In this document: positions 952-13,607 of the stretch, piece by piece
Position numbering within the stretch: the first letter of the stretch is position 1
Layout of the letters: the number at the start of each line of letters is the position of its first letter
Source: a virus
DNA length: 22,790 bases
Reading direction: 5' to 3' (one strand)
Virus record (IMG/VR): IMGVR_UViG_3300042556_001734
Location: 1 to 22,790 of that record
Made by a program: the position numbers and the translations under genes
Notes under the pieces: generated by a model
Databases searched by the model: none
What the model saw: the letters and a program-made list of their open reading frames with translations, nothing else
Told to the model about the DNA's origin: nothing

Positions 952-1256
952 CCGAATCCGACCTCGTCTCCGCAATCCTGATCTGCCTCGGCACGCGCCC
1001 CGGCGTCAAGGTGTGGCGCGCGAACGTGCTCGTGGCGCGAGATCGCACGGGCCGAGTCGTGCGCGCTGGCATCCCAGGGCAGGCCGACATCTCCGGCATC
1101 CTCGCACCCAACGGGCGACGGCTCGAAATCGAGTGCAAGACCGCGACCGGGCGGCAGACTGAAGATCAGAAGCGCTGGCAACGGATGATCGAGGCCCACG
1201 GTGGGCTGTACGTGCTGGCGCGGAGTGTGGCGGATGTGGAGATGGCGCTGAAATGA
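948..1256 (+). CDS. VRR-NUC domain nuclease (102 aa)
   Basis: This is a small stand-alone VRR-NUC (PD-(D/E)XK superfamily) protein. The core is visible: 'GQAD' with D47, the strand 'RRLEIECK' carrying E60, E62 and K64, then Q74 in the helix 'TEDQKRWQRM', and a final 'GGLYVLARS' strand. About 100 residues is the normal length for phage versions, which sit next to replication helicases and primases and are thought to act as structure-specific nucleases. The start is the ATG that overlaps the helicase stop (ATGA). A longer upstream reading of this frame exists but is antisense-like, Arg-rich sequence inside the helicase gene. The stop again overlaps the next start by ATGA, making it the middle member of a three-gene coupled unit. 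The family is clear; the substrate is unknown. Confidence 0.88.
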   Translation: MTESDLVSAILICLGTRPGVKVWRANVLVARDRTGRVVRAGIPGQADISGILAPNGRRLEIECKTATGRQTEDQKRWQRMIEAHGGLYVLARSVADVEMALK

Positions 1257-3544
1257 CCGACTACCCCGACGACCCCATCTCCCTCCTGTTCCAACTCGGC
1301 CTCGGCCCGTGGGTCACGCCGCTCCGTGGCAAGATCCCCACCCTCGACGCATGGAGCACGCGCGAGCCGGTGGACGAGGCGACCGTGCGCGGCTGGGTCG
1401 CGTCCGGTCTAAATCTTGGACTGCGCACCGGGGCGCGCTCGCAAGTCATCGTCATCGACGACGACCGGGGGCGGCATGGTCTCGACGAGTTCGACGCGCC
1501 GCCGACCGGCCTCATCGCACGCTCACCCACGGGCTCGACCCACTACTACTACCGCTGCCCCGCCGTCCCTCCCCGCAACTCAGCCTCGCACCTTGCGCCC
1601 AAGGTGGACGTGCGCGGCGAGGGTGGGCAAGTGGTCGTCCCGCCGAGCATCCACCCCACGGAGCGCGAGGAATACCGCTGGGCCGCGCTGGGCGAGCCGG
1701 GTCCGTTCCCCGCCGACCTGTTCCGCGTCGTGACCGTGGACATGACGCCGCCGCCCGCCTCAACCGGGCAAGGCTACGCCGAGACCGCGCTCAGGCGCGA
1801 GGTCGAGCGGGTCGAGAAAGCAGCCGAGGGGACGCGCAACGACACGCTCAACAAGGCGGCCTTCAGCCTCGGCCAGCTCGTCGCGGGCGGCGCTCTAACC
1901 CAAGACACCGTCCAAGCCCAACTGACGCAAGCCGCGCTGTCCTGCGGCCTCTCAGAGCGCGAGGCTGTAGCCACCATCGCCAACGGCCTCCGTGGCGGAT
2001 CAGCAAAGCCCCGAGGCGTGCCCGAGCGCCATCCGGCTGTGACCACCTCAGCCCCCGAGCGAGCCCGCAAGAAGCGCGAGATCCTTGTGCCGGGCAGCCA
2101 CACGCTGGAGGGCGGCGAGTACGTCGAGCAGGGCAACGACCGCTTCTCGTCCCAGGTGCTCGAACACCTTCCGCCCGACGCCATCTACCGCCGCGCTGGG
2201 ACCATCGGCGAGATCCAAGACGGCCAGTTCTCCGAGGTCAAGCCGCACCGGATGCGCTCGATCATCGACGCCGGTGTGAAGCTGGTAAGTTGCAAGGCAG
2301 ATGACACCAAGGACGGCACCAATTACGAGACCGCGTTCCGTGTCTGCTCGCGTGACGCCGCTGACCTGGTGCTCGGCTACGCCGCCGTGCGCGGGTCGAT
2401 CCGAGACCTGAAGCACATCGCCTCGCACCCGGTCTACGTCGGCTCCGACTTCCACCTAGCCAAGCCCGGCTGGAACGAGGCCAGCGGCGTCTACCTCACG
2501 AGCACGCTCGACGTGGCCCCGCTGGAGCTGGACTACGCCAAGGCGGTGCTGGAGGACTTGGTCTGCGACTTCCCGTTCCAAGACAAGGCCGACCGGGAGA
2601 ACTACTTCGGCCTTTTGCTAACGCCTTTGCTACGTCCCGCGATCAACGAGCCCGTACCAATGCACCTCATCGGCTCGCCGATCGAGCGCAGTGGTAAGAC
2701 CAAGCTCGCCGAGATCGTCCTCGGCTGCATCATCGCCGGTCGGCGCACGCCCGCCATGCAGCTAGGGGACCGGGAAGAGGAGCGCGAGAAGCGCATCATG
2801 GCCGTGCTCATGCGGGGCCAGACCATCCTGCATCTCGACAACCTCTCGGACTTCCTCGACTCAGCCTCGCTGGCATCCCTGCTCACCTCCAGCGAGTACC
2901 AAGGCCGCATCCTCGGGGCCTCAGCCGCGCCCACGCTCACCAACGGGCTCACCGTGGTTGGGACGGGTAACAACGTCCACGCGACGGGGGAGATCAGCAA
3001 GCGCATCGTCCCGGTGCGTCTCCTGCCCAATACGGACGCGCCTGAGAGCCGTACGGACTTCCGGCACCCCGACTTGCTCTCTTACTGCCTCGACGCAAGG
3101 GAGCGCGTCCTAGGCGCTCTGGTGGGGCTCGTAGAGAACTGGCGGGCAGCCGGTCGTCCCCTGCACCGTGGCGGCTTCGGCGGCTTCGAGCGCTGGACAG
3201 CCGTGGTCGGTGGCATCCTCGGCGCGGCGGGCTACACGAACTGGCTCACGTCGATGGCCGAGTGGCGCTCCAGCGCGGACGACTCGACGCAGGAGCACGC
3301 GGCGCTAGTACGCTCCTGGCACGAGCGCTACGCCTGTGAGGCGGTGTCGGGCGGGGACCTTTTTGAGCTTGCCATGGCTCTGGAGCTTTACGGCTGGCTC
3401 GGCGAGAAGCGCTCCGACCGAGGCCAGCGCACGTCCTTCGGGCGCCGCGTCCTCTCGGCCATCGCCGGGCGCATCATCTGCGGCTACCGGGTCGAGTCTG
3501 AAGGCGTAGGCGGGGCGCGGCGCATGAGGTTGACGCATCCGTGA
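1253..3544 (+). CDS. Bifunctional primase-polymerase fused to P-loop helicase/ATPase (763 aa)
   Basis: Residues 1-160 form a primase-polymerase (prim-pol) domain: 'VIVIDDD' with metal ligands D69/D71, 'SPTGSTHYY' with H97, and 'VDVRGEGGQVVVPPS' with D119. Residues about 190-250 ('GTRNDTLNKAAFSLGQL' onward) form the short helical region that follows prim-pol in many phage and plasmid proteins. The second half is an ATPase: a Walker A-like loop 'GSPIERSGKTKL' near 474-485, a Walker B-like 'ILHLDN' near 524, a sensor strand 'VVGTGNN' near 567 and an arginine-bearing 'KRIVPVRL' near 582. The protein probably primes and helps unwind phage DNA. The start overlaps the nuclease stop (ATGA), and the stop overlaps the next GTG start (GTGA). 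No separate DNA polymerase is seen in the window. The prim-pol call is strong; the exact ATPase subfamily is uncertain. Confidence 0.9.
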   Translation: MTDYPDDPISLLFQLGLGPWVTPLRGKIPTLDAWSTREPVDEATVRGWVASGLNLGLRTGARSQVIVIDDDRGRHGLDEFDAPPTGLIARSPTGSTHYYYRCPAVPPRNSASHLAPKVDVRGEGGQVVVPPSIHPTEREEYRWAALGEPGPFPADLFRVVTVDMTPPPASTGQGYAETALRREVERVEKAAEGTRNDTLNKAAFSLGQLVAGGALTQDTVQAQLTQAALSCGLSEREAVATIANGLRGGSAKPRGVPERHPAVTTSAPERARKKREILVPGSHTLEGGEYVEQGNDRFSSQVLEHLPPDAIYRRAGTIGEIQDGQFSEVKPHRMRSIIDAGVKLVSCKADDTKDGTNYETAFRVCSRDAADLVLGYAAVRGSIRDLKHIASHPVYVGSDFHLAKPGWNEASGVYLTSTLDVAPLELDYAKAVLEDLVCDFPFQDKADRENYFGLLLTPLLRPAINEPVPMHLIGSPIERSGKTKLAEIVLGCIIAGRRTPAMQLGDREEEREKRIMAVLMRGQTILHLDNLSDFLDSASLASLLTSSEYQGRILGASAAPTLTNGLTVVGTGNNVHATGEISKRIVPVRLLPNTDAPESRTDFRHPDLLSYCLDARERVLGALVGLVENWRAAGRPLHRGGFGGFERWTAVVGGILGAAGYTNWLTSMAEWRSSADDSTQEHAALVRSWHERYACEAVSGGDLFELAMALELYGWLGEKRSDRGQRTSFGRRVLSAIAGRIICGYRVESEGVGGARRMRLTHP

Positions 3545-3768
3545 GCGCGGTGCGGTGTCCGCTTTGCCCCCGGTCCATGCCGCTCGCGGACTACCGCCAG
3601 CACTGGGACCGCTTCCACGCCGTCAACCTCGTCACCGGCGAGCGGCCCCAGTACCAGCCTCCCAAGACTGCGGCCCGTGCGCCCGCTCCCGGTACGGACT
3701 GGATCGGGTACGGAGCAAGTTTTCGCACGTCCTCTGCTCCGCTGTTCCGAAGAACCGATCCAGCTTGA
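3541..3768 (+). CDS. Small C2H2-like zinc-finger protein (75 aa)
   Basis: The protein starts with GTG, overlapping the prim-pol stop (GTGA), in a style shared by the replication genes. Residues 5-27 read 'CPLCPRSMPLADYRQHWDRFH', that is C-x2-C-x12-H-x4-H, a single C2H2-type finger near the N-terminus. The remaining 45 residues are Pro/Arg-rich with no visible domain. Single-finger proteins of this size are common downstream of phage primases, but their role is not known; DNA or RNA binding is an inference. The 3' half overlaps, in antisense, the last 137 bases of the helix-turn-helix gene on the other strand, and the tail beyond the finger could be non-essential. No strong ribosome-binding site precedes the GTG, so translation probably depends on the upstream gene. 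Confidence 0.65.
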   Translation: MSAVRCPLCPRSMPLADYRQHWDRFHAVNLVTGERPQYQPPKTAARAPAPGTDWIGYGASFRTSSAPLFRRTDPA

Positions 3769-3913
3769 TGGCGCTCCCCAAGCCCGTGCCGTAACCGGCG
3801 CAGATGCGGTCCATGACCGCGATGGACACGCCAGCGCGGCGACCGGCCTCGATGCGGGACAGTGAGAGGCGCGACAGCTCGGCCTTGACGTGAACAGCTA
3901 GCGGGTCGTGCAT
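3632..3913 (-). CDS. Helix-turn-helix DNA-binding protein, probable regulator (93 aa)
   Basis: Residues 1-57 fit a Cro/CI-like helix-turn-helix: a first helix 'AVHVKAELSRL', then 'SLSRIEAGRRAG' and 'SIAVMDRICAGYG' as the two helices of the motif, and 'GSAIKLDRFF' as a closing helix. The 36-residue tail is basic and featureless, and it is the part that overlaps the convergent zinc-finger gene. It is the last gene of the minus-strand cluster. The ATG is the first possible start after an in-frame stop, and no good Shine-Dalgarno sequence precedes it, which suggests weak expression. Known relatives act as repressors or Cro-like switches; here a role in controlling early or late phage genes is inferred only. 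A database comparison could alter this call because the motif is short. Confidence 0.68.
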   Translation of the reverse strand: MHDPLAVHVKAELSRLSLSRIEAGRRAGVSIAVMDRICAGYGTGLGSAIKLDRFFGTAEQRTCENLLRTRSSPYRERAHGPQSWEAGTGAARR

Positions 3914-4099: not shown

Positions 4100-4344
4100 C
4101 AGCGCGCCTCCCGTAGCTTGCGGCGCGCGTCACGTCGAACAGCTTCGCGTAGGTCGCGCCACACCCAGCGCTCGAACAGAATGTCCGTGCCGCCGGTCAA
4201 GCTCACGGACGCGCACGGGCTGTAACGCGGGTACTTCCCGTTCGGCTTGGTCGCCCACCAGATGCGCCCATCGGCCACCCGGAACGCAAGCAGGCTAGCG
4301 GCGTACTCGGCGCGGTCGTAGGGCGCGCGGCGTGTGGTAGTCAC
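4099..4344 (-). CDS. Hypothetical basic protein (81 aa)
   Basis: I do not recognise this protein. It starts at GTG, which overlaps the upstream stop (GTGA) and is preceded by GGGAGGCGAG as a ribosome-binding site; a TTG 15 bases upstream is a less likely start. The middle is aromatic ('GRIWWATKPNGKYPRYSP') and the C-terminus ('RDLREAVRRDARRKLREAR') is strongly basic and probably helical, which would suit nucleic-acid binding. It ends in TGATG with the membrane micropeptide, so the two are likely made together. No transmembrane segment or signal peptide is visible. Confidence 0.72.
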   Translation of the reverse strand: MTTTRRAPYDRAEYAASLLAFRVADGRIWWATKPNGKYPRYSPCASVSLTGGTDILFERWVWRDLREAVRRDARRKLREAR

Positions 4345-4550
4345 TGCCTCGCCTCCCAAGCTTCGCGCAGCCTCGCGGCGTCGCTGTTGCAGCTTGCAAG
4401 CTCGACAGCCGTGCGGCGCACCATCCGATGCGCACCAGCGCCTCCGATGAGCGCGACCGCTAGTACCGCGCGACCGTGCTCGACCTCGGCCTCAAGCGCC
4501 TTCGCCTCGGCGGCGATGACGGCGCACCTTAGAGCCTCTAGAGCGCTCAT
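4341..4550 (-). CDS. Hypothetical Ala-rich helical protein (69 aa)
   Basis: I do not recognise this protein. It is almost entirely helix-forming (Ala, Glu, Leu, Arg-rich), with a short apolar patch 'AVLAVALIGGAGA' that is marginal for a membrane span. The start is the ATG overlapping the upstream stop (ATGA); a GTG two codons earlier is in frame but less fitting. Its start region is nearly identical over 16 bases to the start region of the 71-residue gene at 5297. The stop overlaps the next gene as GTGA. Position alone says it belongs to the early small-gene cluster. Confidence 0.68.
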   Translation of the reverse strand: MSALEALRCAVIAAEAKALEAEVEHGRAVLAVALIGGAGAHRMVRRTAVELASCNSDAARLREAWEARQ

Positions 4551-4840
4551 TTGCACACGATCCTTTCGACCTCGCGCATGTCAGTGAACTCGTCCGCGAG
4601 CAGCGCCGCTCGCTCCAGCACGCGCGCTAGTATCCCGGCGCGGTGCATGTCCAGAAAGCTAGCCACGTGGCGCGATGGGTAGTCGTTGTCCCCAGGCGTC
4701 GCGTAGAGGCCCCAGTATCCCTCCAGCTCGCGCTCGACGTAGTACGCGGGCGCTGTGGTGTCGCCGTGGTGCAGGCACAGCCCAGGGCGAGCCAGTGAGG
4801 CGGCGTGGCAGCCGCAGCCTGTGTCGTGGGCGTCTTTCAT
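4547..4840 (-). CDS. Hypothetical Cys/His-containing protein (97 aa)
   Basis: I do not recognise this protein. It begins at ATG, overlapping the upstream stop (ATGA), and has a strong ribosome-binding site, GGGGAGGTGA, four bases before the start. The N-terminus has a compact set of possible metal ligands: C9, C11, H12, C22, H24 and H25. The middle contains 'YYVERELEGYWGLYATPGDNDYPS' in part aromatic sequence, followed by a helical region ('ARVLERAALLADEFTDM') that may mediate dimerisation. No membrane span is visible. A longer reading of the same frame upstream is Arg-rich, lies on the neighbouring gene and lacks a site, so it was not used. Confidence 0.74.
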   Translation of the reverse strand: MKDAHDTGCGCHAASLARPGLCLHHGDTTAPAYYVERELEGYWGLYATPGDNDYPSRHVASFLDMHRAGILARVLERAALLADEFTDMREVERIVCK

Positions 4841-4855
4841 GGCTTCACCTCCCCG
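4837..4855 (-). promoter_or_regulatory. Repeated cistron junction, copy 1 (ribosome-binding site plus overlapping stop/start)
   Basis: On the minus strand the sequence CGGGGAGGTGAAGCC is followed by ATGA. It encodes the last residues of one gene and gives a near-perfect Shine-Dalgarno sequence for the next. The same 15 bases occur at 5086-5100. Confidence 0.75.
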
Positions 4856-5085
4856 CCACCGTGGGCGAGCGCGAAGTGAACCCAGCACAGGTCGCCGTGT
4901 TCGCGTTGAAGCGGGCACGGCTTCCCATCGGCGCACGTCATGGCGCAGCGGTTGGTGGGCGCTGGTACGTTGTGGGCAAGGCAGTTTCCGCACTGGAGTC
5001 CGCCACGAATTGAGAAGATGTCCCACGCACTGCACGGACGCGCGAGCCCCTTCGTGGCGTGCTTGATCGAAGCTACGGCGCTCAC
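4837..5085 (-). CDS. Cys-rich putative zinc-binding protein (82 aa)
   Basis: This small protein has seven cysteines: C18, C32, C35, C47, C51, C57 and C67, with H70 close by. C32-x2-C35 and the later Cys set ('CAMTCADGKPCP', 'CWVH') make one or two zinc sites likely. I cannot place it in a named family. The start is GTG, overlapping the upstream stop (GTGA) and preceded by GGGGAGGTGAAGCC, the same 14-base string found before the next gene. The last residues 'GEVKP' are encoded by that repeated ribosome-binding string, so C-terminal sequence and translation signal are one element. Its neighbours are also small accessory-type genes, and the function is unknown. Confidence 0.72.
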   Translation of the reverse strand: MSAVASIKHATKGLARPCSAWDIFSIRGGLQCGNCLAHNVPAPTNRCAMTCADGKPCPLQREHGDLCWVHFALAHGGGEVKP

Positions 5086-5100
5086 GGCTTCACCTCCCCG
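5082..5100 (-). promoter_or_regulatory. Repeated cistron junction, copy 2 (ribosome-binding site plus overlapping stop/start)
   Basis: The same 15 bases as at 4841-4855 (minus strand CGGGGAGGTGAAGCC) lie here, followed by GTGA instead of ATGA. They again encode a C-terminal 'GEVKP' and position a strong ribosome-binding site for the next gene. Confidence 0.75.
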
Positions 5101-5297
5101 GCCCCGCGATCGAGCGCGGTCAGCTCGAACTCGCGCAAGCACGCACGCAACAGCCCCGCGCTGTGCTCGTCCTCGTCGTCCCGCTCAAGGTCGCGCACGA
5201 GCACCCTAGAGCCGTCGCTCCAGTACGCGCGCCCGTGCTCGTCGCGGAACAGGTCGGGCGAGCCGTTGCCGGTGGGGAGTTGAGTTAGAGCGCTCAC
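5082..5297 (-). CDS. Hypothetical acidic protein (71 aa)
   Basis: I do not recognise this protein. It starts at a GTG that overlaps the upstream stop (GTGA). The N-terminal part 'PDLFRDEHGRAYWSDGSRVLV' looks like a short beta hairpin, followed by an acidic run 'RDLERDDEDEHSAG' and a helix that ends in 'GEVKP'. The acidic charge is of a kind seen in small phage proteins that mimic DNA or bind host enzymes, but that is speculation. It lies between the zinc-ribbon protein and the Cys-rich protein. Confidence 0.7.
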   Translation of the reverse strand: MSALTQLPTGNGSPDLFRDEHGRAYWSDGSRVLVRDLERDDEDEHSAGLLRACLREFELTALDRGAGEVKP

Positions 5298-5650
5298 TTG
5301 CTCACCGCCTCTCCGGCGCGCTCGACTTGGAACGGCATGCCGCGCGGATCGCCCGCGAACTCCACGGTCAAGCCCGCCTCTGAGCACACGGCGCGCACTA
5401 GGTCTTGCGTGCGGCAGTCGGGGCACACGCCGCCCTTGAGCAGCGTGGAAGGCGCATAGCCCAGCTTGCAGTCCGAGCACTCGCGCGTCTTGCGCTCGCC
5501 GTTGTCGCAGGGCCAGTCGCCGTTGCACAGCGCGACGTTGAGCGTATCGAGGCGCGAGGCGTAGCGGGCGAGCTTGAGCGCGTGGTGGTCGCTGACGCCT
5601 AGGCGGGCGAGGCGCATCAAAAGGTCTTCGCGGGTCTTGCGGTCTAACAT
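5294..5650 (-). CDS. Zinc-ribbon phage protein of unknown function (118 aa)
   Basis: The N-terminal third is helical ('MRLARLGVSDHHALKLARY'). The middle has a string of possible zinc ligands: C42, C48 ('CNGDWPCDNGE'), C58/C61 ('CSDC') and C76/C79 ('CPDC'), with C89 further on. A 'CNGDWPCDNG' segment followed by two CxxC pairs is a pattern I associate with uncharacterised proteins of lytic phages, but I cannot name a family. The ATG is preceded by GGAG at a spacing of eight bases within a GAGACGACAC leader shared with other unlinked starts of this cluster. The stop overlaps the next GTG start. Binding of nucleic acid or of a host polymerase is possible but not shown. Confidence 0.75.
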   Translation of the reverse strand: MLDRKTREDLLMRLARLGVSDHHALKLARYASRLDTLNVALCNGDWPCDNGERKTRECSDCKLGYAPSTLLKGGVCPDCRTQDLVRAVCSEAGLTVEFAGDPRGMPFQVERAGEAVSK

Positions 5651-5751
5651 GTGTCGTCTCCAATCGTGTCGTCTCGTGTCCCCCAGCGCACGCGCGCTAG
5701 TAGGGGCGGCTTCCCGCTACGCGCACAGGGGCGCGTTTCGACCCTTGCCAC
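5644..5751 (-). CDS. Possible very small gene (35 aa), uncertain
   Basis: A GTG start with GAAGAG upstream opens a 35-codon frame whose TAG overlaps the start of the zinc-ribbon gene by seven bases. The product contains 'SGKPPLLARVRWGTRDD' and has two cysteines. It would fill most of the gap between two larger genes, as expected in a cluster that leaves little space. Against it, third codon positions look less GC-rich than in neighbouring genes, and the frame is short enough to be chance. I do not recognise the product. Confidence 0.28.
   Translation of the reverse strand: MARVETRPCARSGKPPLLARVRWGTRDDTIGDDTC
5651..5675 (-). repeat. Direct 10-base repeat in leader of zinc-ribbon gene
   Basis: GTGTCGTCTC (plus strand) occurs at 5651-5660 and 5666-5675, 15 bases apart. 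On the minus strand this gives two GAGACGACAC units, the first of which lies directly before the ATG at 5650. A related GAGACGA string precedes the starts at 6125 and 7262. Confidence 0.7.
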
Positions 5752-5777
5752 GGGGTCTCTTCAATGGCGGGGGTGGG

Positions 5778-6125
5778 CTAGGTGTCTAGGCGCGCGTCAA
5801 GCTCCGCGCGCTGCTCCATCTTGCGCGCGTGCTCCGATGGCGTGAGCACCGCGTAGTTCGTGGCCACAAGCTCCACGCCACGCTTAGCCGACTTGCGACG
5901 CACGTGCGCGGTCCCGAAGTCTTCCCAGCACGTCAGTTCGCCCGCAACACCGGGTAGCACTTGTCCGCGCGTCAAGCGGACCGTGACCGATCCGAGCGCG
6001 CCGCTTTCCAGCCACGCGCGATAGCCGTTCAAGTCAAGCGAGGGCGAGCCCATCGCTCGCGCCCCCTGTCGCACCGCAGCAGCGTACCTGCGCGCCTCAC
6101 GTGTATCGACCGCGTACCGTTCCAT
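5778..6125 (-). CDS. Hypothetical protein (115 aa)
   Basis: I do not recognise this protein. The N-terminal half is helical and basic ('DTREARRYAAAVRQGARAM'). The centre, 'GALGSVTVRLTRGQVLPGVAGELTCW', looks like beta strands, and the C-terminus ends in a charged helix ('SEHARKMEQRAELDARLDT') that could form a coiled coil. The ATG at 6125 was chosen because it has a GAGAGACGAGACT leader resembling those before 5650 and 7262. An in-frame ATG at 6140 would add five residues and cannot be excluded. There are no membrane spans. The gene stands free of its neighbours, with gaps of about 26-127 bases downstream and 137 upstream. Confidence 0.7.
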   Translation of the reverse strand: MERYAVDTREARRYAAAVRQGARAMGSPSLDLNGYRAWLESGALGSVTVRLTRGQVLPGVAGELTCWEDFGTAHVRRKSAKRGVELVATNYAVLTPSEHARKMEQRAELDARLDT

Positions 6126-6262
6126 AGTCTCGTCTCTCATTCCACGCGGTCAGCGCCGCGCTCGCTTGCCCCGTACCCCGGAGCGTGCGCCATCGGACAG
6201 GCGCGGGCTAGCGCGACGTGCGCTAGTGCCGCCAGCTTGTGCGCGCTGGCGTTGCGCGTGGG
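6126..6262 (-). other. Gap between minus-strand genes
   Basis: No convincing gene lies here. On the minus strand the frame that follows the TGA of the CxxCxGxG protein stays open for 41 codons and ends at TGA over the alternative start at 6140, but it has no standard start codon near its beginning. The leader of the next gene (GAGAGACGAGACT) occupies the last bases. Confidence 0.5.
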
Positions 6263-6511
6263 TCAGAAGATCTTGCAGGTAACGTGCTCCACCTCGTATT
6301 CGCCCCGCCCGCCACATCTAGGGCAGTCCGTGTCCACAATGCGAACCGGAGCTCGCGCGCCGTCCTGTTTGACCCACGCTTCAACGATTTCGAACGTGAG
6401 GGAACCGGGTCCGATTTTGTGCAAGCGCCACGAACCGTCGAACCAAAGCTCCTCGATTGCTTCGACGATCTTGCGGCCCTTGCAAAACGAGCACTGTTGC
6501 ATGGTAATCAC
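6263..6511 (-). CDS. DnaJ-type CxxCxGxG zinc-finger protein (82 aa)
   Basis: Two Cys pairs resemble the DnaJ central zinc-finger repeat: 'CSFCKGRK' at C7/C10 and 'CPRCGGRGE' at C63/C66. About 50 residues of mixed strand and helix lie between them. The two pairs probably share one zinc ion. No J-domain is present, so this is not a DnaJ chaperone; phages and bacteria carry many small proteins with this finger, which can bind unfolded protein or nucleic acid. The start is a GTG that overlaps the upstream stop (GTGA), with GGGGAGGTGG seven bases upstream; an ATG three codons later is the alternative. The function is unknown. Confidence 0.76.
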   Translation of the reverse strand: MITMQQCSFCKGRKIVEAIEELWFDGSWRLHKIGPGSLTFEIVEAWVKQDGARAPVRIVDTDCPRCGGRGEYEVEHVTCKIF

Positions 6512-6864
6512 TGCGCCACCTCCCCACGCGCGCGGGCGAGGGCGGAGCGGGCCGCTTCCATGCGCGGAAACATTCCATGCCCGCGCCGTAGTAAGCGGAT
6601 GTAGTCGAGCACGCCCTCGTCGGACTGCTCGGATAGGTCGCGGACCGACTGCTCTAGATCCGCCAGCGCCGCGTACAAGTCGGGCGCGGCGGCGATCAGG
6701 CGGGCGTTGGCTTCTTGCTCGTGCTTGTACCCGTAGACCGCTGCGATGAGCGCATCGGTCCGCCCGCGCGGCCAATCGGGGTGCGCAATCTTGAGGCACC
6801 CGGCCGGAGCGCCAATGTCCGGGCGCACGCCCCACGGCCCGCGCGTGAATTGCGGCCCGCTCAT
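6508..6864 (-). CDS. Conserved-type phage protein with EANARLIAAAPDLY motif (118 aa)
   Basis: The N-terminus 'SGPQFTRGPWGVRPDIG' and the segment 'HEQEANARLIAAAPDLYAAL' (about residues 48-67) match a pattern found in a very common but uncharacterised set of phage proteins. In these a 'TPGPW'-like start precedes 'ANARLIAAAPELL'. The C-terminal half is helical and charged. These proteins are often found near early genes, and their role is not established. The ATG overlaps the upstream stop (ATGA), and the stop overlaps the next GTG. A longer reading upstream is Arg/Gly-rich and lies on the neighbouring gene, so it was rejected. Confidence 0.8.
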   Translation of the reverse strand: MSGPQFTRGPWGVRPDIGAPAGCLKIAHPDWPRGRTDALIAAVYGYKHEQEANARLIAAAPDLYAALADLEQSVRDLSEQSDEGVLDYIRLLRRGHGMFPRMEAARSALARARGEVAQ

Positions 6865-7262
6865 AAGCGCACCGCCTCTCCGCCCAACTCGGCAAGCGCC
6901 TCCGAGAAAAGCTCCGCACGAACCACGCGCCGATAGCGCAGCGCGCCCTTCTCGTCGCGCTTGTCCTCGTGGATCGAATGGAGCGAGCCAATGCACGCGC
7001 CGTCCGCGTCGTAGGCGTAGCAGGACATAAGGCGCGCGTTCGATCGGTCCTCGTCCGTGTAGCAGTCCTCATCGAGCCACGATGCGTCCGCGTCGTAGTC
7101 CTGCTCCCACTGCACGAACCAGCCGAATGCCGTTCCCTCGCGCTCCGCTCGCGCCAGAGCACGCGCGCACCGTTCGCGCCCTTGCGCCGGAGTCTCGCCA
7201 GCGCCGTAGCTGGACCCCGCGTGCGTGCGGAAGAATCGAACCGCGTCCGAATGCTTGCTCAT
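6861..7262 (-). CDS. Hypothetical acidic protein, first gene of minus-strand cluster (133 aa)
   Basis: I do not recognise this protein. It is the promoter-proximal gene of the minus-strand cluster. The N-terminus is helical and basic ('KHSDAVRFFRTHAGSSYG'). The centre is acidic and aromatic ('WFVQWEQDYDADASWLDEDC') and is followed by 'CYAYDADGACIGSLHSI', probably beta structure. The end 'RVVRAELFSEALAELGGEAV' is helical. GGAGACTGAGACG lies directly before the ATG. A candidate sigma70-like promoter sits about 70 bases upstream. As the first-transcribed gene it may act earliest in infection, but its function is unknown. Confidence 0.75.
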   Translation of the reverse strand: MSKHSDAVRFFRTHAGSSYGAGETPAQGRERCARALARAEREGTAFGWFVQWEQDYDADASWLDEDCYTDEDRSNARLMSCYAYDADGACIGSLHSIHEDKRDEKGALRYRRVVRAELFSEALAELGGEAVRL

Positions 7263-7333
7263 CGTCTCAGTCTCCGTTGCGCCCCCAGTCGAGGGCTGGT
7301 CAGTGTGCTCGGCCCCATGCCTTGCACGTCCCC

Positions 7334-7363
7334 ATTCTATCGACCCGATTGCCTAGGTTTCCA
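7334..7363 (-). promoter_or_regulatory. Candidate sigma70-like promoter for minus-strand cluster
   Basis: On the minus strand TGGAAA (7363-7358) is followed after 18 bases by TAGAAT (7339-7334), matching the -35 consensus at 4 of 6 and the -10 consensus at 5 of 6 positions. A start near 7327 would give a leader of about 65 bases before the ATG at 7262. The spacing is one base longer than ideal. In a host with different sigma factors it may mean little. Confidence 0.32.
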
Positions 7364-7374
7364 CACCTTCCACA

Positions 7375-7400
7375 CTTTCATAAGTTTCTGTTATGTAAAG
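7375..7400. repeat. Bulged inverted repeat in control region
   Basis: CTTTCATAA (7375-7383) pairs with TTATGTAAAG (7391-7400), leaving one unpaired T in the second arm and a 7-base loop. It touches the first AAAGTAGCG motif (7397-7405) and lies just upstream of the candidate minus-strand promoter, so it could be an operator or a cruciform. Confidence 0.5.
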
Positions 7401-7405
7401 TAGCG
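7397..7405 (-). repeat. 9-base motif CGCTACTTT, copy 1 (complement orientation)
   Basis: AAAGTAGCG on the plus strand is the exact complement of the CGCTACTTT units at 7444, 7453 and 7574. Confidence 0.7.
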
Positions 7406-7443
7406 GCCCTAACCCCATATCCCGCGCGCACTTACGCCAGTTT

Positions 7444-7461
7444 CGCTACTTTCGCTACTTT
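7444..7461 (+). repeat. 9-base motif CGCTACTTT, copies 2 and 3 in tandem
   Basis: Two exact units stand head to tail without a spacer. The tandem arrangement and the matches elsewhere in the region suggest a protein-binding array. Confidence 0.75.
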
Positions 7462-7497
7462 CTCCGGGCGCTACGCTATACGGGCGCTCCCCCTCTC

Positions 7498-7513
7498 CAC
7501 ACCTATACGTGTG
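7498..7513. repeat. CACAC/GTGTG dyad around CTATAC
   Basis: Bases 7498-7502 (CACAC) and 7509-7513 (GTGTG) form a short inverted repeat around CTATAC. The heptamer TATACGT occurs at 7504-7510 and again at 7539-7545. Confidence 0.4.
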
Positions 7514-7573
7514 TAGTAATGTTCATAACCTTCATGTGTATACGTAAATGCCTATGGCGCAAGGGCTTACGCT

Positions 7574-7619
7574 CGCTACTTTACCGTCCCAAAACATACT
7601 AACCTTGGGGAAAGTAGCG
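7574..7619. repeat. 9-base motif copies 4 and 5 as an inverted pair
   Basis: CGCTACTTT at 7574-7582 faces AAAGTAGCG at 7611-7619, both exact, with 28 bases between them. The spacing would let two bound proteins meet by looping, or the pair could be an origin or operator element. Confidence 0.7.
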
Positions 7620-7791
7620 AACCTCCATGCGCCCGTGAAAGAGAAGCGCATAGGTGAAAGACAGTGTCCCTTAGCGTCATGGACACGGGCCGGGCAGACA
7701 CGGACGCGCTGGCAACCTATCCACCTGGGACGCAGAGCGAATGGGGTGCAGGGGGCTTGACGGATGCGGGCGCAAGGGCGAGGGTGAAGGC

Positions 7792-8439
7792 GTGGACGCA
7801 CCCGAAACCACGCGAGTTGAGATTGTCCAGAATCTGGACGCGGGCCGAAGCGAGCAACGAGCCGAGCAGAGAATCGGGCCGCACCCCAACTCGCTCGCCA
7901 ACCTGAAGCGCTTCCCCCCTGGCCAGTCAGGCAATCCAGCCGGCCGCCCCAAAGGCTCCAGCCCGCGCCAAGCTGCGATGCGCCTACTCGCGGAGCACGC
8001 GGGCTCGGACGGCGAGGGCGCGATGGCTACGCGCTTGGGACGCGGCTACGTCGAAGCGGTGCGCACCTTAACCGAGCGCATGGCTGACCCGAACGCGTCC
8101 CCATCGGCGCTGGCGAGCTACGGGAAGGCGCTCGAATCACTGACCCGCGCCCTGGCCGAGCTTGACCCCGCGCCGAAGGTGACCGAGCGGCGCGAGACTA
8201 GCCAGCGCGTCGTCCTGTCCCTCTCTGGCAAGCTCCCCGATGCGCCCGCGCAGCTTCCGATAATACCTGTTGTGTTGCACTCGACAGAGCAGATGGGAAG
8301 ATGCGAGGAAGATGCCGCCCCGCGCACAGTCGAGGCAGAGCGAGCGGGCGGGGGGACGTCGGAGACCGGCTCCGGGTCCCATCCTGACGCACCGCTTCCG
8401 TTGCGGAGTACCCCGCCCCCGTCCCCGCCCACACCATAG
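7792..8439 (+). CDS. DUF5681-type protein, probable terminase small subunit (215 aa)
   Basis: Residues 41-55, 'FPPGQSGNPAGRPKG', match the highly recognisable DUF5681 motif, found near the N-terminus of phage proteins encoded close to terminase genes. The following helices ('RQAAMRLLAEHAG', 'YVEAVRTLTERMADP', 'ALASYGKALESLTRALAEL') suit a DNA-binding, oligomer-forming small subunit that recognises the packaging site. The last 60 residues are Pro/Gly/Ser-rich and probably disordered. The GTG start at 7792 has GAGGGTGAAGGC before it; an ATG at 7741 is in frame but adds a low-complexity Gly/Arg segment without a good site. The large subunit lies 5.2 kb downstream, which is unusually far. The motif is certain; the terminase role is inferred. 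Confidence 0.72.
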   Translation: MDAPETTRVEIVQNLDAGRSEQRAEQRIGPHPNSLANLKRFPPGQSGNPAGRPKGSSPRQAAMRLLAEHAGSDGEGAMATRLGRGYVEAVRTLTERMADPNASPSALASYGKALESLTRALAELDPAPKVTERRETSQRVVLSLSGKLPDAPAQLPIIPVVLHSTEQMGRCEEDAAPRTVEAERAGGGTSETGSGSHPDAPLPLRSTPPPSPPTP

Positions 8440-8462
8440 GGGGGGGCCTCGACGCGAGCGCG

Positions 8463-8473
8463 ATGGGTCCCAT
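8463..8473. repeat. Palindrome ATGGGTCCCAT, copy 1
   Basis: This is a perfect 5-base inverted repeat around a central T. A related partial site, GGGTCCCAT, occurs at 8374-8382 inside the upstream gene. Confidence 0.7.
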
Positions 8474-8512
8474 GCGTGACGGCCCCGGCATGGGGTGGCA
8501 CATAATCCCAGC

Positions 8513-8527
8513 AGATGGGTCCCATCT
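8513..8527. repeat. Palindrome AGATGGGTCCCATCT, copy 2
   Basis: The same 11-base core as at 8463 is extended to a 15-base palindrome. The two centres (8468 and 8520) are 52 bases apart, close to five helical turns. Confidence 0.72.
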
Positions 8528-8561
8528 TGCACCGGCCTGCGTGCTTGCGTAGAAACTAGCC

Positions 8562-13221: not shown

Positions 13222-13607
13222 TGCCGCAGCCGGTGGTGCGCAAGGCTGACGTGTGGCAAGGCGCGGACGTGACGTTCCGTGAGCGCCTGGTCACGGGCAA
13301 CGGCGGGACGGCGCTGGTCCAGGCTGATGTGAACTCGTGGTCGCTGCGGGTGTTCCGCGCTGGCGACGAGAAGAACGCGAAGCGGATCGTCACTGACGCA
13401 GCGGCGACGAGCTACTTCTTCGACACGCTCCAGCTCACGGACTGGACGCGCGACACGGTGGGCTACAACTTCCAGTACCGGCTGCCTTACTCGTCGTTCA
13501 AGGCGAGCGCGGCTACGTACGTGTTCGAGTTCGCCATCAAGACGGGCTCGTACGGGACGATCTTCTCGGTGTGGGAGATTCGCTATCTGCCGGTGGCGAG
13601 CGTGTGA
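13221..13607 (+). CDS. Small tail or baseplate-associated protein, BppU N-domain-like (128 aa)
   Basis: This is an all-beta protein: 'ADVWQGADVTFRERLV' then 'SWSLRVFRAGDEKNAKRI', 'YNFQYRLPYSSF' and 'ATYVFEFAIKTGSYGTIFSV', ending 'WEIRYLPVASV'. The order of a polar strand, a 'W-x-L-x-V' strand and a final 'Y-x-x-E-x-x-x-K-T-x-x-G' strand resembles the N-terminal domain of BppU-like baseplate proteins and other small phage adaptor proteins. It closes the putative adsorption module and sits directly before the terminase large subunit, with a TGATG overlap at both of its ends. The assignment is by pattern only. Confidence 0.55.
   Translation: MPQPVVRKADVWQGADVTFRERLVTGNGGTALVQADVNSWSLRVFRAGDEKNAKRIVTDAAATSYFFDTLQLTDWTRDTVGYNFQYRLPYSSFKASAATYVFEFAIKTGSYGTIFSVWEIRYLPVASV

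Follow-up and report, generated by a model that had tools for sequence, protein, structure and literature searches.

An array of 9-bp repeats lies in the gap between the divergent operons of an uncultured phage, and we estimate a probability of roughly 0.68 that these repeats are the iterons of a phage replication origin bound by the phage's own prim-pol/AAA+ helicase. The window (the whole stretch of DNA that was analysed, a full IMG/VR record of 22,790 bases) is a 22.8 kb phage fragment. We favour an origin because distant relatives of the enzyme, in plasmids and viruses, have arrays of like build beside their genes, and also because one such array, that of the plasmid pWTY27, has been bound experimentally. 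The window is laid out as follows.

Left end of the window: pieces of a helicase and of a VRR-NUC-like protein
1253-3544, plus strand: prim-pol/AAA+ helicase of 763 aa, the proposed initiator (PF09250, phrog_10537, homology to pWTY27 RepA)
3632-3913, minus strand: small HTH protein of 93 aa, the rival binder (HTH_31, E 1e-4, under the curated cut-off)
About 4341-7262: small leftward genes in one block, separating prim-pol from the array
7317-7656, no strand: conserved non-coding island of about 330 bp, from the identity profile and alignment, which holds the array (proposed origin)
7741-8439: DUF5681 protein gene, right-hand neighbour of the gap
13571: large terminase, among the virion genes
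Virion genes: candidate portal and capsid, the capsid lacking a family match and named by its place only

IMG/VR searches with the capsid, DUF5681 and prim-pol proteins each retrieved close relatives only, and a search with the product of the leftward neighbour gene found no relatives. The comparison set comprised six genomes, namely the window, two closed relatives of about 46 kb and three partial records. The closed relatives, G003 and G004, are records of 46,187 and 46,126 bases with identical 127-base ends, and are therefore read as circular maps of 46,060 and 45,999 bases. Both (L030-L032 and L033-L035) are classed as linear; the overlap is of k-mer length and the ends fall at different map positions. 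Gene content of the leftward block (4341-7262) varies among the close relatives, resembling an insertion hot spot.

The initial annotation had described five copies of CGCTACTTT in the gap as far beyond chance, and this was borne out in both number and place. The exact copies start at 7397 (-), 7444 (+), 7453 (+), 7574 (+) and 7611 (-), against 0.08 copies expected from dinucleotide shuffles, and none of 100 shuffles gave five. There is no sixth copy, either exact or with one mismatch, in the 22,790-base window. In an unbiased scan of the window, both closed relatives and two partial relatives, the array ranked top among all clustered 8-mers and 9-mers; its score at k=8 in the window was 13.8, compared with at most 6.0 in Markov-resampled controls. 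In the closed relatives it is still the top cluster, with a small lead over the next one because fewer of the copies there are exact.

The 9-mer is non-palindromic, and a repeat search found direct 9-bp steps together with widely spaced inverted copies. Substitutions within the copies are limited to positions 2-4, plus position 7 in one site, which gives the consensus CNNYACYTT. It can be seen from the list below that this consensus describes seven sites between 7361 and 7619, including two degenerate tandem copies, with 9-bp tandem steps at 7361/7370 and 7444/7453 and with both orientations present.

7361-7369, plus strand: putative degenerate iteron S0, CCACACCTT, found by repeat search, in tandem with S1 and fitting CNNYACYTT
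7370-7378, plus strand: putative degenerate iteron S1, CCACACTTT, one 9-bp step from S0
7397-7405, minus strand: putative iteron S2, exact CGCTACTTT, 9/9 columns invariant in six genomes
7444-7452, plus strand: putative iteron S3, exact CGCTACTTT, 9/9 columns invariant
7453-7461, plus strand: putative iteron S4, exact CGCTACTTT, in tandem with S3; CAACACTTT in two relatives
7574-7582, plus strand: putative iteron S5, exact CGCTACTTT; CGACACTTT or CGCCACTTT in relatives
7611-7619, minus strand: putative iteron S6, exact CGCTACTTT; CGCTACCTT in four relatives

S0 lies within TTCCACACCTT (7359-7369), which is invariant across the six genomes, and in one relative (L027, at 9651) an exact CGCTACTTT stands in place of S1, displaced by one base. 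By eye, S0 and S1 possibly resemble DnaA boxes, with two to three mismatches. Further 'decayed copies' that had been proposed at 7469-7478 are altered in G006 and G009 and so are not kept in all relatives.

The six-genome alignment shows an island of mostly 75-100% identity to the window across approximately 7317-7656; the leftward neighbour gene differs in the relatives, and identity falls to 30-65% past the far end of the island. Invariant columns make up 39 of 45 in the motif copies and 192 of 280 in the rest of the island. In the two closed and three partial relatives the exact motif occurs in this gap only, and the one extra exact copy, in the partial record G009, is likewise inside it. 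An even spread through complete genomes, or loss of the motif from relatives that keep the flanking genes, would have spoken against the initial annotation; the motif is instead confined to the gap in the closed relatives, and is kept where the right-hand gene is shared. The simpler consensus CNNYACTTT gives five to seven matches per record, most of them in the gap.

The AT-richer setting noted at the outset was also confirmed, since the array region has a GC content of 51% compared with 66% in its surroundings. Dips of 34-38% GC adjoin the sites at 7350-7399 and 7500-7549. Two further features of the island are given here.

7334-7363, minus strand: sigma-70-like leftward promoter, TGGAAA-18-TAGAAT (one found, 0.3 expected)
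7501-7549, no strand: AT-rich core of 34% GC, partly invariant (invariant ACCTATACGTGTGTAGTAATGTTCATAACCTT, 7501-7532), a candidate unwinding region

The promoter includes the invariant TATCGACCCGAT at 7338-7349. Rfam and tRNA scans found nothing. Matches to the invariant core in genome contigs and in one extra viral contig were set aside as chance.

The proposed initiator carries a Prim-Pol domain in its N-terminal half (PF09250, E 1.2e-23), and its C-terminal ATPase half matches phrog_10537 (E 1.1e-47). The ATPase half has no Pfam family, except for one weak AAA match in a homologue. By tblastn it has distant homologues in plasmids and phages, and it aligns with RepA of pWTY27 at 27.6% identity over residues 310-693 (E 9e-39). 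The prim-pol protein has no solved-structure match; the helicase profile gave weak and unconvincing matches only when compared with solved structures, and a structure model of the helicase half has a mean pLDDT of 31.7, too low for use. On one reading of the alignment, inspected by eye, the helicase C-terminus may form a winged-helix.

Replication of the Streptomyces plasmid pWTY27 depends on repA, repB and a neighbouring non-coding region of 300 bp; this region contains five 8-bp repeats, five 7-bp repeats on the opposite strand and AT-rich stretches, and purified RepA binds the iteron region in vitro, protecting about 105 bp (PMC3583192). The two systems share a homologous helicase half and short repeats in both orientations, spread over a non-coding region of about 300 bp that includes AT-rich stretches (PMC3583192). 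They differ in that the pWTY27 repeat has another sequence and its array lies directly 3' of repA, and in that prim-pol and helicase are separate genes in pWTY27, a plasmid, whereas they are fused here, in a 46-kb phage. In phage P4, the alpha protein is a primase and helicase in one and recognises the short iterons of a phage-type origin.

We applied the unbiased scan for clustered 8-mers to 23 loci that encode distant homologues of the helicase, and ten of them have an array 11-121 bp beyond the 3' end of that gene. In pWTY27 the best cluster was its known iteron. In the first set, another five loci have their best cluster starting 12-95 bp past the helicase stop: those of pCM32, of three Streptomyces plasmids and of the Methanosarcinales virus vir525. 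A second set of 11 loci was fetched and scanned without prior inspection; five have a cluster, of which four (Nonomuraea, AZO_p2, pGP6 and pA32H2) start 11-121 bp after the stop. The nominal probability of this placement is 3e-7 in the second set and 6e-17 when the two sets are pooled; these values are indications only, because the limit of 150 bp was set once the data had been seen. The remaining 13 of the 23 loci, large phages among them, have no array beside the gene, and the 3' position is therefore usual among cluster-bearing homologues rather than a strict requirement. Three further viral contigs encode proteins with 44-53% identity to the AZO_p2 helicase, and in these the gene is followed directly by short arrays in inverted groups. 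The array loci are labelled L052, L053, L055, L056, L062, L063, L064, L067, L069, L070 and L075-L077.

Units in the homologue loci are of 8-9 bp, occur in both orientations and in most cases follow one another in tandem steps of 8-11 bp; the array regions are mostly lower in GC than their surroundings. Unit size, steps, orientations and (mostly) lower GC thus make the arrays of pCM32, the Streptomyces plasmids, the AZO_p2 prophage region, pGP6 and vir525 like that of the window, whereas they adjoin the gene and have other repeat sequences. The resemblance is therefore one of layout, as the homologues do not share a repeat sequence. To our knowledge, arrays beside these helicase genes have not been described apart from pWTY27, and we know of no experiment on those of pCM32, the Streptomyces plasmids, AZO_p2, pGP6 or vir525.

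The window shares several features of the pWTY27-like layout: its short, asymmetric, non-coding repeats are clustered, it encodes the homologous helicase and the repeat DNA is AT-richer. It departs from it in position, as 3.8 kb separate the array from the prim-pol stop; no cluster directly follows the prim-pol gene in the window, and small leftward genes intervene. Further points for an origin are the single dense locus, the retention of the island while the leftward gene changes, the fit of the substitutions to CNNYACYTT and the AT dips. In the closed relatives, the minimum of the cumulative GC skew falls approximately 0.8 kb rightward of the array. This skew had been suggested as a check, and while the minimum is indeed nearby, skew at third codon positions gives no confirmation; across most gene blocks its value is close to zero or its sign is wrong, and GC skew therefore lends an origin no independent support. 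Among the functions first offered for the repeats (iterons, operators, or sites for a phage-specific transcription factor), iterons are best supported, through the homologue arrays and pWTY27 (PMC3583192).

We infer the binding protein, its binding domain, the site of unwinding and the start of replication at this place. The prim-pol/AAA+ helicase (1253-3544) would bind the 9-bp units at the seven sites (7361-7619), probably via its C-terminal part, and would assemble on the array, unwind the neighbouring AT-rich DNA and initiate replication. As the leftward and rightward operons diverge from the gap, the bound initiator may also influence their promoters.

If the 9-mers were operators, a transcription regulator, whether the small HTH protein or some other phage factor, would control the divergent promoters through them. 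The divergent operons flanking the gap, the sigma-70-like promoter adjoining S0/S1, the conserved HTH-like protein encoded nearby and the leader GTCTCCGTTG, which persists despite a different first leftward gene in the relatives, are all consistent with such control. An HTH protein of this kind is expected to use palindromic sites. The 9-mer lacks the two-fold symmetry expected of XRE-type repressor operators, and its 9-bp tandem steps and variable spacing are unusual for XRE-type dimers; being non-palindromic and in direct tandem steps, it makes the small HTH protein a less likely binder. In addition, neither the other divergent region nor the remaining operons of the closed relatives carry a copy, and the layout fits the origins of the encoded helicase family. 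We therefore consider it unlikely that the repeats are operators of a separate regulator, while an origin initiator could regulate transcription too.

The repeats also lie just upstream of the DUF5681 gene (7741-8439), a plausible small-terminase gene by its place only, with the large terminase at 13571, and might on that account be a terminase-binding packaging site of pac or cos type. This is improbable. The DUF5681 protein has diverged to 66-80% among the relatives while the motif has not, and the cut points of the two closed records differ, both lying outside the gap. Moreover, a second conserved island, at the 3' end of the DUF5681 gene (8374-8530), has palindromic repeats of the ATGGGTCCCAT type and is the better candidate, which makes a packaging role for the array less likely. 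A chance or neutral slippage repeat without function is the least credible explanation by far, as slippage could produce one tandem pair but the copies are dispersed, in both orientations, kept in relatives and far above chance.

Read as an origin, the array gives a group of uncultured phages a testable candidate; it also connects a recognisable origin layout with an uncharacterised family of helicases, whose members occur in plasmids and viruses of bacteria and archaea. If this is true, origins could be read from sequence beside these helicase genes, and many natural pairs of initiator and repeat could be compared towards a recognition code. More tentatively, and at somewhat below even odds, an AAA+ initiator family, often fused to prim-pol, may start replication from rapidly diverging arrays of units of about 9 bp, the phage origin having become separated from its gene and doubling as a divergent promoter switch. 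With the same reserve, the family would extend over plasmids of Streptomyces, prophages of proteobacteria, plasmids and viruses of archaea, and the present phage. It would, on this possible but unproven joint reading, be hardly covered by Pfam or NCBIfam, and the switch would act between the leftward genes and the virion operon.

The second conserved non-coding island (8374-8530), a candidate packaging site, contains three copies of GGGTCCCAT, two of them as the palindrome ATGGGTCCCAT, and a near-invariant stretch of about 55 bp beginning TGACGCACCGCTTCCGTTGCGGAGTACCCCGCCCCCG; the GC-skew minimum of the closed relatives falls within it. Exact 19-mer matches in viral contigs were rejected as irrelevant, because they lie in unrelated contigs, where they are repeats that appear to be coding and a 9-bp microsatellite. 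An unrelated 65-kb viral contig has a pure 9-bp tandem array of CGCTACTTT at both ends of its record (L007, 1-125; L008, 9260-9383), which possibly reflects an assembly break within a coding repeat.
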